Positions 4,521 through 46,545 of a stretch of DNA of 64,000 nt are shown piece after piece. Where the stretch lies: contig NZ_CP042913.1 of the NCBI RefSeq assembly GCF_008065115.1, positions 71,211 to 135,210 on the forward strand, given 5' to 3'. The notes beneath the pieces were generated by a model. That model was not told where the DNA came from, did not search any database, and was given only the letters and a program-made list of their open reading frames with translations. This stretch comes from Bythopirellula goksoeyrii (lineage in GTDB: Bacteria; Planctomycetota; Planctomycetia; Pirellulales; Lacipirellulaceae). The position numbers were made by a program, and so were the translations under genes. Within the stretch, counting starts at the first letter, position 1, and every line of letters begins with the position of its first letter.

Positions 4521-4578
4521 GCGAGCCGGCTCGTCCCCGAGCCTGTAGGAATTCGGGGTCGAGGACGACCCGGCTCGC
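4521..4578. repeat. Long imperfect palindrome upstream of the PfkB kinase gene
   Basis: Bases 4521-4536 pair with 4563-4578 (16 bp, one mismatch). The inner part continues as ccccga/tcgggg (4535-4540 with 4553-4558), giving a long GC-rich hairpin. A further partial copy of the arm (ggctcgcc) lies at about 4610-4617. This looks like a dispersed intergenic palindromic element rather than a simple terminator, as no T-tract follows. It could still limit read-through from the upstream DUF1559-like gene. Confidence 0.6.
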
Positions 4579-10188: not shown

Positions 10189-10407
10189 TTCAAGATGCTC
10201 TAACTTCCCAGCGGCATCGCGGATAATGCTTGTGCCGAATGTCGAGCTATCTACACTGGCTCGGGAGTCAAAGACTGAAGAAGAGGCGCCGGAGCAATAC
10301 CGCCGAGTGCGCGACGAAAAACGCGACTTTGCTGAGCGCTTGCCAGATGTCCTGAGCGACTCTGGTGCATAGAACTCTACGAAAGAGTAAGTACTAATTC
10401 TTCTTCC

Positions 10408-10463
10408 TAGCCGGAGGCACACCTGCCTCAGGGAATGTCCGGAGGCAGGTGTGCCTCCGGCTA
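10408..10463. repeat. 22-bp perfect inverted repeat downstream of rpsU
   Basis: Bases 10408-10429 and 10442-10463 are exact reverse complements (arm tagccggaggcacacctgcc plus tc) around a 12-nt loop. It lies 14 bp beyond the rpsU stop and about 220 bp beyond the terminator of the porin-like gene, so it could terminate rpsU on the minus strand. Its perfection and GC content resemble a recently copied palindromic element. The flanking sequence from 10189 to 10407 shows nothing else. Confidence 0.7.
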
Positions 10464-10476
10464 AGATAGGGCATGA

Positions 10477-12896: not shown

Positions 12897-12922
12897 GTTT
12901 TGTGTGGGCTAAGTTTCTCGAT

Positions 12923-13044
12923 AAGAAATAGCACGCGGATGAACGCGGATTCAGCGGATCGGCGCGGATTTTAGAGAGATAAGAATTCCAATTTCCTATC
13001 AGCGAAAATCCGTACAATCTGCGTTCATCCGCGTTCTATTTCTT
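12923..13044. repeat. Gene-less inverted repeat unit, family A (acgcggatgaacgcgg)
   Basis: Left arm 12923-12972 reads aagaaatagcacgcggatg and onward; right arm 13002-13044 is its imperfect inverse. No gene lies between. The same arm sequence flanks the GxxExxY gene at 15.5 kb, forms another unit at 17178-17264 and a half-copy at 33184-33217. It looks like a MITE-like, non-coding member of a dispersed family. The rest of the interval to 13315 is leader of the pseudopilin gene with no clear feature. Confidence 0.75.
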
Positions 13045-13315
13045 CTCTTCTGGATGGACCTACATAAAAGAATATATGCCAACCTGTATTGTAACACGCC
13101 ACCAGGCACCCCGGCAGTGAGGCACAATCGAGCAGAATCGGCTGAAGAACGTTTTATAGTGCTGCATTTGCTCCCGGCACATTGCTCATTGGGCCTTAGT
13201 CCTTGGTCACTCTCTTACGGGTTCTGCTTGACTTTTTGGCCTCTGCGCGGTGCAATAGTAGTATTGAGACCGACTAATTCAGAGGCACCCGGTCCAGAGC
13301 GGAACACGAGTCAAC

Positions 13316-15070: not shown

Positions 15071-15141
15071 CTATTAGCTGTTAGGCATTAGCTATTAGCC
15101 ATTCAAATTCCGCATTCCCCAATCCGAATTCCGCATTCCCT
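15071..15141 (+). repeat. Short direct repeats forming a gene leader
   Basis: Bases 15071-15100 consist of near-copies of agctattag/ctgttag. Bases 15106-15119 and 15127-15140 are exact direct repeats of aattccgcattccc. The following ATG at 15143 comes directly after them, so the whole 5' leader of the next gene is repeat. Similar agctaatagc strings occur at about 11062 and 53528. Confidence 0.6.
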
Positions 15142-15142
15142 A

Positions 15143-15442
15143 ATGCCTGACATCCACTCGATTCGACTTCGCGAACCTTGGCAATGTGAGCCTTGTGAAT
15201 CGGGGGTCCGGTGGTCGCGCTCTTTTAATTGGCCCGCGGGGCTGACGCCGCGGGAGAAAGTGTGGATCGTTGTCGATCCCTTGCCCGCCGACGCGCGGGT
15301 GACACTCAATGGGCAATCGCTTGGCGAAGGCTTAGAGATTACGCGTCTGATTGGGCTCACCAACCGCGTGGAGATCGAACTCCCGCAGGGGAGGGCAGGG
15401 GAGTTGCCCTTTGCGGTGCGGATTGATATCGATGAGGGGTAG
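15143..15442 (+). CDS. Small beta-rich hypothetical protein
   Basis: A 99-residue protein that was not recognised. The core VWIVVDPLPADARVTLNGQ, followed by a LTNRVEIELP strand, resembles the edge of a galactose-binding-like jelly roll such as those in glycosidase accessory domains. There is no signal peptide or membrane segment. It starts with no visible Shine-Dalgarno straight after repeats, and its TAG stop (15440-15442) is contiguous with the left arm of the GxxExxY cassette. It could be co-transcribed with the upstream pseudopilin gene (72-bp gap). Confidence 0.6.
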   Translation: MPDIHSIRLREPWQCEPCESGVRWSRSFNWPAGLTPREKVWIVVDPLPADARVTLNGQSLGEGLEITRLIGLTNRVEIELPQGRAGELPFAVRIDIDEG

Positions 15443-15993
15443 GAAGAAATGGGACGCGGATTCGGCGGATTGTCGCTGATTTTTAAGAAAGGATCCGGGC
15501 TGTGCCTGAGGGATTAATTCGCGGTGATCTCACCGATAGAATCATTCATGGTTTCTATCATGTTTACAATTCGCTCGGATATGGATTTCTGGAAAAGGTT
15601 TATGAGAATTCTTTAGGTATCACCCTTTCGAAGTCAGGATGTACGGTCAAGCAACAATGGCCGATTGCTGTGATGTTCGAAGAGGAAATCGTTGGAGAGT
15701 ATTTTGCCGACTTGCTAGTAAATGAATCGGTAATCATCGAAGTGAAGGCAGCTGAATCGATTGCGAAAGAACATGAAGCTCAACTCGTAAACTATCTCAA
15801 GGCAACTGGCTATCAAGTCGGTCTTATACTAAACTTTGGACCGAAGGCTGAGTTTCGTCGCAAGGTATTTTCCCATTAAACAAAACTATCGCTGTCAGTA
15901 GCTTGGTTTCCGTTTCTGTCGAATGCCTAATTGAAACCTGTCTGATCTGCGAACATCCGCCAAATCAGCGTTCCTCCGCGTTCCATTTCTTCC
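15442..15993. mobile_element. GxxExxY cassette 1 bounded by family A inverted repeats
   Basis: Left arm 15442-15484 (ggaagaaatgggacgcgg and onward) and right arm 15944-15993 are imperfect inverse copies of each other and of the gene-less units at 12.9 and 17.2 kb. The only gene inside is the GxxExxY gene. The left arm begins on the last base of the upstream gene's stop codon. No transposase or target duplication is seen, so calling this a mobile element is inference from the symmetric repeats. Confidence 0.6.
15502..15879 (+). CDS. GxxExxY family protein (PD-(D/E)XK nuclease-like)
   Basis: Member of the GxxExxY family, 125 residues from a GTG start at 15502. The name-giving motif is GYGFLEKVY at 26-34. 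Asp70 and Glu80-Val-Lys82 (in YFADLLVNESVIIEVKA) give the D-x9-ExK core of a PD-(D/E)XK nuclease fold, and KATGYQVGLILNFG is the conserved C-terminal block. The function is unknown; family members are often multicopy and surrounded by repeats. A second copy lies at 46068-46436 with different flanking repeats. The two proteins share the same motif spacing but are clearly diverged, so this is not a recent local duplication. Confidence 0.88.
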   Translation: MPEGLIRGDLTDRIIHGFYHVYNSLGYGFLEKVYENSLGITLSKSGCTVKQQWPIAVMFEEEIVGEYFADLLVNESVIIEVKAAESIAKEHEAQLVNYLKATGYQVGLILNFGPKAEFRRKVFSH

Positions 15994-16019
15994 TTCGTAG
16001 CTCTCAATCTCACCACATC

Positions 16020-17186
16020 ATGACTAAAATCGTTTGCACACTATGTCTGCTCCTATCCTATTCCATTTCGCATGCAGCGGAGAATGTCCTCACACCCAAA
16101 CAAATAGACGACGGTTGGATTGCACTCTTTGATGGCGAGACGCTCTTTGGTTGGGAGGCGACAAGCGATGCCAACTGGCGCGTCGAAGATGGTGCGATTA
16201 CGGTCGACTCCGGTGATGAGGGCTGGCTGATGAGTACCAGCGAGTTTGCGGACTATGCGTTGCACGTTGAGTTCCAAGCCCCCAAGACGACCAACAGCGG
16301 AGTCTTTCTGCGCACTCCCCTCAATCCGACGGACCCAGCACAGGATTGCTACGAAGTAAACATCGCTCCAGCGGAGAATCCGTTTCCGACTGCTTCGATC
16401 GTGGGGCGTAGGCGTTTTGGAGGCCCACTGAAGTGGGCACCGCCGTCGTGGCATGTTTTTGAGATCACCGTCGAAGGGCCCCAGGTTAGAGTCGTACTCG
16501 ATGGGGCAGAAGCGGTTTCGTACACCGATCCCCACCCTGTCGCCCGCGGCCACATCGGCTTGCAACACCGCGAAGGCAAGATCGCATTTCGCAACATTCG
16601 GCTCAAACCGTTAGGATTGAAACCGATTTTCAACGGCCGCGATCTTACCGGTTGGAGCACAAAAGGAACGGACCAAAGTGAGTTCTCGGTGAACGCAGAA
16701 GATGACCTCACGGTGCAAAACGGCCCCGGTCATTTGGAGAGTGTCGACAGTTATGGCGACTTTGTCCTGCAACTCGAATGCAAAGTCAACGGTGACGGAC
16801 TCAACTCGGGCATCTTCTTCCGCTGCATCCCCGGGGACAAGATGATGGGCTATGAGAGCCAGATTCACAACGGGATGGTCGATGGTGATCCCACCAAACC
16901 GGTCGACTGCGGCACGGGCGGCATCTTCCGCCGGCAGAATGCCCGCCGCATCGTAGCGAGCGATCACGAGTGGTTCGCCAAAACTATCATCGCCAACGGT
17001 CCCCACGTGGCAGTGTGGGTCAACGGCTATCAAGTGAGCGACTGGACCGACGATCGGAAGCCCGACGTAAACCCTCGCCGTGGCCTCAGGCTTGAAGCGG
17101 GTACGCTCATGATTCAGGGGCACGATCCGACGACTGATCTAGAGTTTCGCAATCTACGGATCGCGGAGTTGCCTGGAAAGAAATAG
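16020..17186 (+). CDS. Secreted protein with two DUF1080 domains
   Basis: Exported protein of 388 residues with a signal peptide (IVCTLCLLLSYSISHAAE), probably acting on extracellular or periplasmic carbohydrate. Two DUF1080 (3-keto-disaccharide hydrolase-type, concanavalin-like) modules follow: one from WIALFDGETLFGWE to AFRNIRLKPL, and a second from PIFNGRDLTGW to LEFRNLRIAELP. DUF1080 domains are often coupled with Gfo/Idh/MocA oxidoreductases; here the neighbours are argG and a GxxExxY cassette. ATG 16020 is chosen since the upstream in-frame part encodes the repeat arm. The last codons and TAG stop lie inside the left arm of the repeat unit 17178-17264. Confidence 0.85.
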   Translation: MTKIVCTLCLLLSYSISHAAENVLTPKQIDDGWIALFDGETLFGWEATSDANWRVEDGAITVDSGDEGWLMSTSEFADYALHVEFQAPKTTNSGVFLRTPLNPTDPAQDCYEVNIAPAENPFPTASIVGRRRFGGPLKWAPPSWHVFEITVEGPQVRVVLDGAEAVSYTDPHPVARGHIGLQHREGKIAFRNIRLKPLGLKPIFNGRDLTGWSTKGTDQSEFSVNAEDDLTVQNGPGHLESVDSYGDFVLQLECKVNGDGLNSGIFFRCIPGDKMMGYESQIHNGMVDGDPTKPVDCGTGGIFRRQNARRIVASDHEWFAKTIIANGPHVAVWVNGYQVSDWTDDRKPDVNPRRGLRLEAGTLMIQGHDPTTDLEFRNLRIAELPGKK

Positions 17187-17264
17187 GCCGCGGATGAACG
17201 CTGATTTTGCGGATTTACGTAGATGAGAAGTTCCGTGAGCATCCGCTTAATCCGTGTTCTTCCT
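17178..17264. repeat. Gene-less family A inverted repeat overlapping a stop codon
   Basis: Left arm 17178-17219 (aagaaataggccgcggatga and onward) supplies the last Lys codon and the TAG stop of the DUF1080 gene. Right arm 17237-17264 is its degenerate inverse. It has the same composition as the unit at 12923-13044 and the arms of cassette 1. Confidence 0.65.
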
Positions 17265-17327
17265 TGGCCCATTTCTCCCTGTGAACCGCTTGCCAGTCTT
17301 GCGGTGTCCATCCACAATGGGTTTCCT

Positions 17328-17408: not shown

Positions 17409-18629
17409 ATGATTATGCCCAGTTGTGTGTTGGCTTATTCGGGAGGTTTAGATACCTCGGTAATTCTCGGTTGGCTTCAGGACGAAGGCTACGATGTGCA
17501 TGCCGTGTATGTCGATCTGGGGCAACCTTGTGAAGACCGTGAGGCGATTCTACAGAAGGCTCGCGACAACGGAGCAAAATCCTCGCAACTCATTGACGCC
17601 CGTGAGGAGTTATGCCGCGACTTTGCCTTCCCGGTGCTCCAATGGCAAGCGAAATACGAAGGGATTTATTTGCTGGGTACTTCGATCGCGCGGCCGTTGA
17701 TCTCGAAGATCTGCTTGCAGGTTGCCCGCGAGGTGGGTGCCGAGGCCTATGCCCATGGGGCGACCGGCAAAGGTAATGATCAATGTCGCTTCCAACTTGC
17801 CGCCGAAGCCCTCGATCCGAATGTCCAGATCATCGCCCCGTGGCGGATCAAGCAGTTCCGCGATTTGTTCCCCGGCCGTACCGAGATGATCGACTACTGC
17901 GACGCGAAGAAAATCCCCGTCAAAGCTTCTGCGGCGAAACCTTACAGCAGCGATGAGAATTGCCTGCACATCAGCTACGAGGCAGGCAAGCTCGAAGACC
18001 CCACGGTCAATGGTGTGGCAATCGTTGATTTCGGCATGTCTGTTTCGCCTCAAGAGGCTCCAGACAAGGTGGAAGAGGTCACCATTGAGTTTGAGAGCGG
18101 TGTGCCAACGAGCGTGAATGGCAAGAAGCTCAGCCCGCTTGCGATAGTCGAGACGATGAACGAAATCGCTGGCCGCAATGGGGTAGGGCGGATCGACATC
18201 ATCGAAAACCGCTTCGTCGGCATGAAGAGCCGCGGCGTGTACGAGGCCCCCGGCATGACGGCCCTGTACGCTGCCCATCTGGCGATGGAGCAACTCACGC
18301 TAGACCGCGAGACAGTTCACCTGCGCGACCGCATCGCTCCCGAGGTGGCAGAGATGGTCTACTACGGTTTCTGGTACGTCCCCAAAATGGACGCCCTGTT
18401 GGCTTTCATACGCGAAGTGCAGAAACCGGTCACCGGCAGCGTGACGCTTGGACTCTACAAAGGCAACGTGATGATCCAGAGCCGAGAAAGCCCCAACAGC
18501 CTCTACGACGAGGAGATCGCCAGCATGGAAGGTGGCGGCAGCTACGACCAGACGGACGCGGAAGGGTTTTTGAGGATCCAGGGGTTGCCGAGTCGGGTAC
18601 TAGGGGCGGCGCGGCCGAGAGCATATTAG
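17409..18629 (+). CDS. argG: Argininosuccinate synthase
   Basis: Condenses citrulline and aspartate with ATP in arginine biosynthesis. The 406-residue product begins with the PP-loop ATPase motif LAYSGGLDTSVILGWL, followed by YAHGATGKGNDQCRF and the tetramerisation-type C-terminal region (HLRDRIAPEVAEMVYYGFW). Either ATG 17409 or ATG 17415 may start it. The TAG stop is contiguous with the left repeat of the four-helix-bundle cassette. argH is not next to it. Confidence 0.97.
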   Translation: MIMPSCVLAYSGGLDTSVILGWLQDEGYDVHAVYVDLGQPCEDREAILQKARDNGAKSSQLIDAREELCRDFAFPVLQWQAKYEGIYLLGTSIARPLISKICLQVAREVGAEAYAHGATGKGNDQCRFQLAAEALDPNVQIIAPWRIKQFRDLFPGRTEMIDYCDAKKIPVKASAAKPYSSDENCLHISYEAGKLEDPTVNGVAIVDFGMSVSPQEAPDKVEEVTIEFESGVPTSVNGKKLSPLAIVETMNEIAGRNGVGRIDIIENRFVGMKSRGVYEAPGMTALYAAHLAMEQLTLDRETVHLRDRIAPEVAEMVYYGFWYVPKMDALLAFIREVQKPVTGSVTLGLYKGNVMIQSRESPNSLYDEEIASMEGGGSYDQTDAEGFLRIQGLPSRVLGAARPRAY

Positions 18630-19088
18630 GGGGCTGGGATTCGGGGGCTGGGGGGAAGAAACAATGAGCATTCTTAGCTATCGAGACTTGGTCGTTTGGC
18701 AGGAGGGAATGGCTATCGCCAAAGAGGTCTATAAAGCTAAGGAGCACTTCCCCAAACAGAAACTTTATGGATTGGTCAGCCAGATTCGTAGGTGCAGCGT
18801 CTCCATCCCTTCCAATATTGCCGAAGGACACGCGCGGACCTCAACCAAGGAGTATCTTCATCACATTTCTTTTGTGATGGGCTCGCTGGCCGAATTAGGA
18901 ACGCAACTCATCTTGTCCAACGAACTCCAATATCTTGACGAAATCATTATGAATTCTCTCCTCGAAAGGTGTGAGACTTTAGGAAGACGCTTGAGATCAC
19001 TCACAAGCTCCTTGAAATCCAGGGTTTTGCAATCGAAGGAAACTTAGTTTCTTCCCCCAGTCTCAAGCCCCCAGCTCCCAGTCCCCCC
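18629..19088. mobile_element. Four-helix-bundle cassette bounded by family C inverted repeats
   Basis: Left arm 18629-18662 (gggggctgggattcgggg, then ggaagaaac) and right arm 19047-19088 (gtttcttcccccagtctc, then C-rich) are imperfect inverse copies. Together with the enclosed gene they fill exactly the space between the argG stop codon and the ATG of the ABC-2 permease gene at 19089. There is no transposase; the mobile nature is inferred from symmetry and position. Confidence 0.6.
18664..19047 (+). CDS. Four-helix bundle protein (23S rRNA intervening-sequence protein family)
   Basis: Small protein of 127 residues of the TIGR02436/S23 family, first known from open reading frames within 23S rRNA intervening sequences and structurally a pentameric four-helix bundle; the Avd proteins of diversity-generating retroelements have the same fold. 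Hallmarks are YRDLVVWQEGM at the N-terminus, QIRRCSVSIPSNIAEGHAR in the centre and the helical FVMGSLAELGTQLIL. No 23S rRNA and no reverse transcriptase are nearby. Its ATG lies just after the left repeat and its TAG overlaps the right repeat. Confidence 0.92.
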   Translation: MSILSYRDLVVWQEGMAIAKEVYKAKEHFPKQKLYGLVSQIRRCSVSIPSNIAEGHARTSTKEYLHHISFVMGSLAELGTQLILSNELQYLDEIIMNSLLERCETLGRRLRSLTSSLKSRVLQSKET

Positions 19089-20711: not shown

Positions 20712-20724
20712 CCGGCACACGACT

Positions 20725-20797
20725 TGTCATTCCCGCGCAGGCGGGAACCCAGACGGCAGCGGTAAGAACCTGGATTCCCCCCTGCGCGGGAAAGACG
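20725..20797. repeat. Palindromic unit of the gtcattcccgc type
   Basis: Arms about 20725-20752 (tgtcattcccgcgcaggcgg and onward) and 20769-20797 (cctggattcccccctgcg and onward) are inverse imperfect copies. This sequence class is found dispersed in many bacterial genomes. It lies 13 bp after the permease stop and could form the transcript's 3' hairpin. Confidence 0.65.
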
Positions 20798-20926
20798 AGA
20801 AACCACTCTGTTGAAAAGACGAGCAACGGCAGCGCGGGAATAGCAGTGGAAGCTTGACGATCAATTCCTCGTTATGCGATAACGGACGTTGCCATCCTAT
20901 GCCGCCCAGTTTAAAGGTTTACCCTG

Positions 20927-45951: not shown

Positions 45952-45977
45952 TGAATGAGTCCAACCTGAGATGTTTT

Positions 45978-46530
45978 TTAGCCACAGATTGACACGGATG
46001 AAACACGGAAAATATTGATGTCGAAACCTAATCTGCGTTCAATCCGTGGCTAATTCATACCAATCTTTCAATACACCATTCGTTTGAATTCAACTTTACT
46101 CCTTCCAAAGTTGAATATGATGCCGACTTTGATTCCAGTTGCTTTGAGTTCGTTTAATAGCTGGGGCTCGTCCTCTGGGTGATATGTTTTGGCGATCTTT
46201 AGTTCTACGAGGACGCATTCTTCTACAAAGAGATCCGCTGAATAGTCTCCGACGAGTGCATCCTTGTATCGGACCTTGATCTTGCTCTCAAGTTCGGATT
46301 TTAGACCTCGCAACTGCAATTCGACCTGCATTGCTTTCTGATACACTTTCTCAAGAAATCCGTAGCCCAGTACATTGTACACTTCGAACGCCGCCCCGAT
46401 GATTTCCTCGGTTATATCTTTATGCTGCAAATTCATGTTCTTTCACTGCCTCAAATTGAGAAGCGATTGGGTTTGTTGAGAAACATACTCGCTCGGCATC
46501 TGTGTTTCATCCGTGTCAATCCGTGGCTAA
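45978..46530. mobile_element. GxxExxY cassette 2 bounded by family B inverted repeats
   Basis: Bases 45978-46006 (ttagccacagattgacacgg and onward) and 46502-46530 are inverse copies with 28 of 29 matches. A third, inverted partial copy at 46030-46053 makes the left end itself a hairpin. The only gene inside is GxxExxY. The size (553 bp) is nearly that of cassette 1 (552 bp), but the repeat sequence is a different family. Confidence 0.65.
46068..46436 (-). CDS. GxxExxY family protein, second copy
   Basis: A 122-residue member of the GxxExxY family. GYGFLEKVY lies at 24-32 and the nuclease-like core Asp68 with Glu78-Leu-Lys80 (SADLFVEECVLVELK) has the same spacing as in the copy at 15502. NELKATGIKVGIIFNFG is the C-terminal conserved block. 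It lies between the Y-family polymerase and SRAP-like genes in the same direction. It may be an inserted cassette or a functional third member of that group. Confidence 0.9.
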   Translation of the reverse strand: MNLQHKDITEEIIGAAFEVYNVLGYGFLEKVYQKAMQVELQLRGLKSELESKIKVRYKDALVGDYSADLFVEECVLVELKIAKTYHPEDEPQLLNELKATGIKVGIIFNFGRSKVEFKRMVY

Positions 46531-46545
46531 AGAATTCGCTTCTCT

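Follow-up and report, generated by a model that had tools for sequence, protein, structure and literature searches.

The GxxExxY gene studied here lies alone between two inverted arms of short tandem units and is most likely a self-spreading genetic cassette of a widespread kind that had not been described before. We regard it as probable that the unit is a short transposase-free element, in which a GxxExxY nuclease gene sits between tandem-unit arms, is accompanied by many geneless copies of these arms and encodes an enzyme that recognises its own arms. The window, i.e. the whole stretch of DNA that was analysed, comprises 64,000 nucleotides of Bythopirellula goksoeyrii (contig NZ_CP042913.1, positions 71,211 to 135,210).

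Architecture of the cassette

The features of the window are listed in Table 1. The arms that the earlier note had placed around the gene were recovered with outer blocks (15441-15460 and 15975-15994) that are 95% complementary over 20 nt and inner blocks (15451-15480 and 15945-15974) that are 80% complementary over 30 nt. The score of the pair was 35, while the maximum among 3000 shuffles was 30. The 99-aa gene ends with the stop codon TAG (15440-15442), into which the left arm reaches, and between the arms the GxxExxY gene is without a second gene; both points had been claimed and both hold. A scan of the full window at the spacing of the cassette yielded scores of at least 30 at two places only, each occupied by a GxxExxY gene (15.3 kb and 45.9 kb). 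Comparisons that comprised just 4-5 control genes were set aside.

The window also contains strong geneless palindromes at 10405-10466 (GCCGGAGGCA...), 20723-20799 (GTCATTCCCGCGCAGGCGGGAA...) and 4521-4578 (GCGAGCCGGCTCGTCC...), which probably belong to other dispersed repeat families.

Table 1. Cassettes, neighbouring genes and related hairpins in the window
Feature	Position	Strand	Remarks
Second geneless hairpin	12920-13047		arm class of the window cassette
Upstream neighbour, 99-aa conserved protein	15143-15442	+	stop codon touched by left arm; junction conserved in genus
Left inverted arm	15441-15484	+	class AGAAATGGAACGCGGATGAACGCTGATT...; starts on stop codon of upstream gene
GxxExxY protein gene, 125 aa, GTG start	15502-15879	+	predicted PD-(D/E)XK nuclease, RecB/Cas4-like type
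Right inverted arm	15944-15994	-	further copies elsewhere in the B. goksoeyrii genome
Downstream neighbour, 3-keto-disaccharide hydrolase (PF06439)	16020-17186	+	junction conserved
Geneless hairpin	17178-17275		arm class of the window cassette; follows stop codon of the hydrolase gene
Four-helix-bundle (TIGR02436/PF05635) cassette	18629-19088	+	gene 18664-19047 between arms of GGGGGCTGGG units; left arm starts on argG stop codon
Second GxxExxY cassette	45974-46534	-	gene 46071-46424 (-); arms 45974-46009 and 46499-46534; class TAGCCACAGATTGACACGGATGAAACACGGA

The GxxExxY protein

The protein matched TIGR04256 with 127 bits (curated cut-off 35) and PDDEXK_3, PF13366, with 131.6 bits (curated cut-off 22). 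The PD-(D/E)XK core that had been suggested from the sequence was borne out: among 48 relatives D70, E80 and K82 never vary, nor does E31, and the AF2 model (pLDDT 94.3) has a PD-(D/E)XK fold in agreement with the triad. Q94xxxY98 we take to be the QxxxY motif of the RecB family. No relative of the protein was found in the PDB by sequence. In a structure comparison the closest PDB entry was Cas4 (4ic1, Z 9.1 over 99 residues), and lambda exonuclease and archaeal Hjc were among the best Foldseek matches of the model. With these enzymes and the RecB-family nucleases the protein shares the fold and the active site (E, D, ExK, QxxxY), yet it is a minimal stand-alone domain of 125 aa, here outside a CRISPR or recombination operon. 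It is not a Cas4, as the four iron-sulphur cysteines are missing, a Cas4 profile gave weak matches only and no CRISPR gene was present among the neighbours read. The model is best described as that of a RecB/Cas4-like PD-(D/E)XK nuclease with an intact active site. The dN/dS ratios of GxxExxY genes ranged from 0.03 to 0.26, i.e. the protein is under purifying selection.

No GxxExxY match was detected in the phages searched, and in the plasmids searched the family was rare with 8 distant matches. Small PD-(D/E)XK enzymes in a mobile context are familiar from homing endonucleases of the I-SspI type. In contrast to these, GxxExxY does not reside in an intron or intein but between inverted repeat arrays.

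Arms around GxxExxY genes in other genomes

Arm pairs were located by a seed-and-align scan; a BLAST self-comparison had missed most of them. All ten GxxExxY genes of the B. goksoeyrii genome had inverted repeats, and eight of them had arms on both sides. Each of these eight pairs differs in sequence, and their common design is about 3-4 tandem units of 8-10 nt, e.g. CCACAGAGG-CACGGAGG, CGCAAAGG-CGCTAAGG or CGCGGATGAA-CGCTGATT; a period of 9-10 nt was found in 78 of 105 arms. The remaining two genes, L014 and L016, lie in units that are nearly identical to each other; these have outer terminal repeats and only a one-sided hairpin. The upstream hairpin of L016 is present twice. L014 and L016, and likewise L254 and L258 of genome G001, possess a further terminal inverted repeat (GGCCGAAAAACTACTTCCC; GGRACGGCTCAATARTAAC), which lies outward of the unit arms or takes their place.

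In a 464-kb sample of the genome, which included twenty 20-kb stretches of which eight were picked for containing GxxExxY genes, all seven arm pairs that scored at least 34 at a spacing of 200-700 bp enclosed GxxExxY genes; no other gene was so enclosed. Within the genus, 53 of 70 full-length GxxExxY genes with both flanks scored at least 30. Across phyla the same threshold was reached by 54 of 77 GxxExxY genes, leaving 23 without arms above it, versus 5 of 152 control ORFs from these loci; mismatched flanks reached it in 4% of cases. Judged by record titles the arm-positive loci represent at least 12 phylum-level groups, which include Bacteroidota, Proteobacteria, Chloroflexota, Acidobacteriota, Planctomycetota, Verrucomicrobiota, Nitrospirota, Gemmatimonadota and Fusobacteria. 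Literature searches, which covered open-access papers, returned no account of GxxExxY arms.

Arms follow the protein

Arm similarity was correlated with protein identity both across phyla (Mantel r 0.31, n = 59) and within the genus (Mantel r 0.41, n = 31), and in either case none of 5000 permutations reached the observed value. Window-like proteins of Bacteroidetes, Chloroflexi and Acidobacteria have AGAACGCGGATGACGCGGAT arms like that of the window, and other proteins have AGACAGGATTAACAGGAT or GCCACGGATTGAACACGG arms. A co-variation of palindromes and enzyme is also a property of RAYT systems.

Geneless hairpins of the window's arm class occurred three times in the sampled stretches of the B. 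goksoeyrii genome. Among 14 genomes of the genus the arm classes appeared in an on/off manner: the window class was matched 44 times in G001 and not once in six relatives, and the class CCACGGAG was absent from five genomes and reached 88 in G003. The reversed-pattern control was zero in all 14. In 43 genomes of the family the CCAC-class pattern was counted 0, 1, 1 and 0 times in the four without GxxExxY versus a median of 30 in the 39 with the gene (p = 0.001), with a Spearman coefficient of 0.56 and a reversed control of zero in 43 of 43. Many of the relatives' genomes are incomplete assemblies, and in some of these an arm class was present and the matching GxxExxY gene was not found.

Genome G015 has seventeen hairpin elements with closely similar 27-bp arms, which resemble the arms of the cassette of that genome, around unrelated interiors of 21-558 bp. 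An element at pyrH/frr that is common to G014 and G015 likewise has kept its arms and not its interior. Thus arms are maintained or homogenised and interiors not, and simple whole-unit copy-and-paste does not account for the G015 hairpins. The notion that geneless hairpins are deletion derivatives with one common interior was rejected on account of the unrelated G015 interiors. In one locus (L292, G015:C12:181950-182900) GxxExxY-class arms surround 558 bp in which another apparent reading frame is present, possibly other cargo.

Presence and absence at conserved junctions

At the conserved junctions of argF, gatA/gatB, gltB/gltD and argG, related species had a full cassette, a decayed cassette, a geneless hairpin, a scar or a clean empty site. 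The junction of the 99-aa gene with the hydrolase gene carried the cassette in G000 and G001 and lacked it in six relatives. Behind argF the cassette of G000 was matched by clean empty sites in G001 and G011. At the hydrolase/argG junction G003 had a full GxxExxY cassette of the window's arm class, and G000 and G001 had geneless hairpins. Behind argG we found four-helix-bundle cassettes in eight genomes, a GxxExxY cassette in G007 and a bare hairpin in G002. gltB/gltD had five intact and two decayed cassettes; hairpins, Y1-transposase elements and sites without any of these were each seen twice there. gatA/gatB had three cassettes and three remnants.

Comparison of the empty argF site of G001 with the cassette placed the insertion directly behind the stop codon with no clear duplication, the species being much diverged. 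None of the junction comparisons displayed an exact target duplication, and they involve species too diverged to read one. Finally, units at two loci within one genome were 83-92% identical with unrelated flanks (L014/L016, L254/L258 and L115/L117).

Two side observations concern mixed sites. At gltB/gltD a Y1/RAYT-type transposase with its own palindromes lies beside a GxxExxY-class arm remnant (L276, G002:C20, and L278, G007:C33), and at the argF junction of G009 (L264, C24) the loop of a GxxExxY-class hairpin harbours a second hairpin, of the four-helix-bundle class.

Four-helix-bundle genes with the same architecture

Genes for four-helix-bundle proteins of the S23/IVS-protein family have the same armed architecture as the GxxExxY cassettes. 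Their arms consist of units of about 10 nt (GGGGGCTGGG, TTAGCTGTTAGC, GAGTTGCGAGTT, GTCATTTGTCATT and AAATTGCAAATT in the window and in loci L083-L112) and were recognisable in nearly all of 27 complete loci of the genus, 19 of which scored at least 30. The protein had a weak match to Avd of diversity-generating retroelements; its single-sequence fold was poor (pLDDT 66), and no conclusion was drawn from the model. A TTAGCTGTTAGGCATTAGCTATTAGCC... repeat like the arms of this class is located at 15071-15148 of the window, shortly upstream of the 99-aa gene.

Comparison with known systems

REP/REPIN-RAYT systems consist of a small enzyme gene bracketed by inverted palindromes with many dispersed geneless intergenic copies (e.g. 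PMC3116915). The GxxExxY element resembles them in its single small enzyme gene between inverted palindromes, in the dispersed geneless copies and in the co-variation of enzyme and palindromes. The dependence of the palindromes on the enzyme gene is likewise seen in the family-wide counts, as a correlation; the resemblance is one of analogy, not homology. On the other hand, RAYT is a Y1/HUH transposase, while GxxExxY has the features of a RecB/Cas4-like PD-(D/E)XK nuclease, and the GxxExxY arms are arrays of 8-10-nt units that vary between elements. Because the defining RAYT transposase is absent from between the window arms, we do not class the element as REP-RAYT. By analogy, the best reading is that it works like REP-RAYT with an unrelated enzyme.

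The 23S rRNA intervening sequences (IVS) contain an S23 four-helix-bundle gene and have a 28-bp terminal stem (PMC4990558). They are similar in being short inverted-repeat-bounded units with one small non-transposase gene and a sporadic distribution. Yet, IVS reside within helices of the 23S rRNA, and their product is a four-helix bundle instead of a nuclease; the window cassette is intergenic and encodes a different protein. With MITEs and insertion sequences the cassettes share terminal inverted repeats, versions with and without gene and empty sites in sister species. They differ from these, and from DDE or Y1 transposons, in that the unit contains no transposase and no gene other than GxxExxY, that a target duplication was not recognised between the diverged species compared and that the arms are not a fixed terminal sequence. 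Unlike integron gene cassettes, which form arrays, the GxxExxY cassettes are single and have arms on both sides.

Alternative explanations

The main rival is that another transposase, above all one of the Y1/RAYT (IS200/IS605-like) enzymes, acts in trans and moves the arms and cassettes as REP/MITE-like palindromes, with GxxExxY as a passenger. Each of the 14 genomes of the genus had Y1_Tnp matches, with the lowest numbers in those with the fewest hairpins (G005 and G006), and at gltB/gltD the cassette of some species gives way in G002 and G007 to a Y1 transposase that has repeats of its own. However, the RAYT elements at this junction bear different palindromes (CCCAGCGATTTATCGCTGGG), and across phyla the arms change in step with the GxxExxY protein, a match for which a passenger would have no need. 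Y1 and arm counts within the genus were not significantly correlated (p 0.15-0.18), but neither were GxxExxY and arm counts (p 0.18). We consider this explanation unlikely, though it deserves to be taken seriously.

An RNA-level element in the manner of the IVS, whose arms form an RNA stem as a substrate of RNase III and which spreads via RNA and a reverse transcriptase in trans, would agree with the shared architecture of the S23 genes, which are known from IVS, in the window. It would also agree with the position of the cassettes, 100 of 107 of which lie behind co-directional genes at a median of 12 nt from stop codon to left arm. Yet, wobble pairs of the sense strand were in no clear excess among the arm mismatches (134 vs 115) and the nearest folds of the enzyme are DNA nucleases, making such an element improbable.

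Slightly less probable still is an immobile host device, i.e. arms that serve a useful nuclease gene of the host as its terminators or operators. Purifying selection on GxxExxY and the persistence of arms at the orthologous pyrH/frr site, where the interior drifts, fit such a device; clean empty sites, scars, decayed cassettes, the differing positions between sister species, duplicated units and the many geneless copies do not, and the series of junctions already disfavours it. That the arms are a coincidence has nothing in its favour beyond the imperfect complementarity of the window pair and is refuted by shuffles, control genes, genome scan and cross-phylum recurrence.

Proposed mechanism and implications

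In the earlier note the cassette had been suggested to be mobile and to carry a nuclease in place of a transposase. As far as sequence comparison can tell, mobility is well supported by the recurrence of the armed gene in the many phylum-level groups, by presence and absence at junctions and by the two-locus duplicates. The nuclease as the driver is supported indirectly, by arms that co-vary with the protein, solo arms that track the presence of the gene and an active site that is intact. The attribute 'self-contained' is unproven, because all 14 genomes of the genus have Y1/RAYT transposases and neither cutting nor movement was observed. Further points that weigh against our reading are the 23 cross-phylum genes short of the arm threshold, the arm classes of incomplete genomes for which a matching gene was not found, the unlike interiors of the G015 hairpins, and the rarity of GxxExxY on plasmids together with its absence from the phages searched.

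We infer binding and cutting by GxxExxY, the copying of the arms, and GxxExxY rather than another enzyme as the driver. The nuclease would most likely recognise the unit arrays of its own arms, probably extruded as a cruciform or as single-strand hairpins, and would nick or cut there. Host repair and recombination would then carry copies of the arms to new sites, either together with the gene or alone, and would keep both arms alike.

Tentatively, and with less confidence than for the element itself, we extend this view to the family. GxxExxY nucleases might be the engines of widespread transposase-free selfish elements, each reading, spreading and homogenising its own arms and explaining a large part of the intergenic hairpins that are dispersed in many phyla, with the four-helix-bundle (S23/Avd-like) cassettes as a second, convergent class. 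Dispersed intergenic hairpins like CCACGGAGGCACGGAGGACACGGAG or GCGCAAAGGCGCTAAGGCGC, which are common in bacterial genomes, would thereby be tied to a specific enzyme, and the S23/four-helix-bundle repeats separately to a second one. A nuclease-only route of DNA spread is thus proposed, and an uncharacterised nuclease family would gain a testable substrate together with dozens of natural enzyme-arm pairs of differing specificity.
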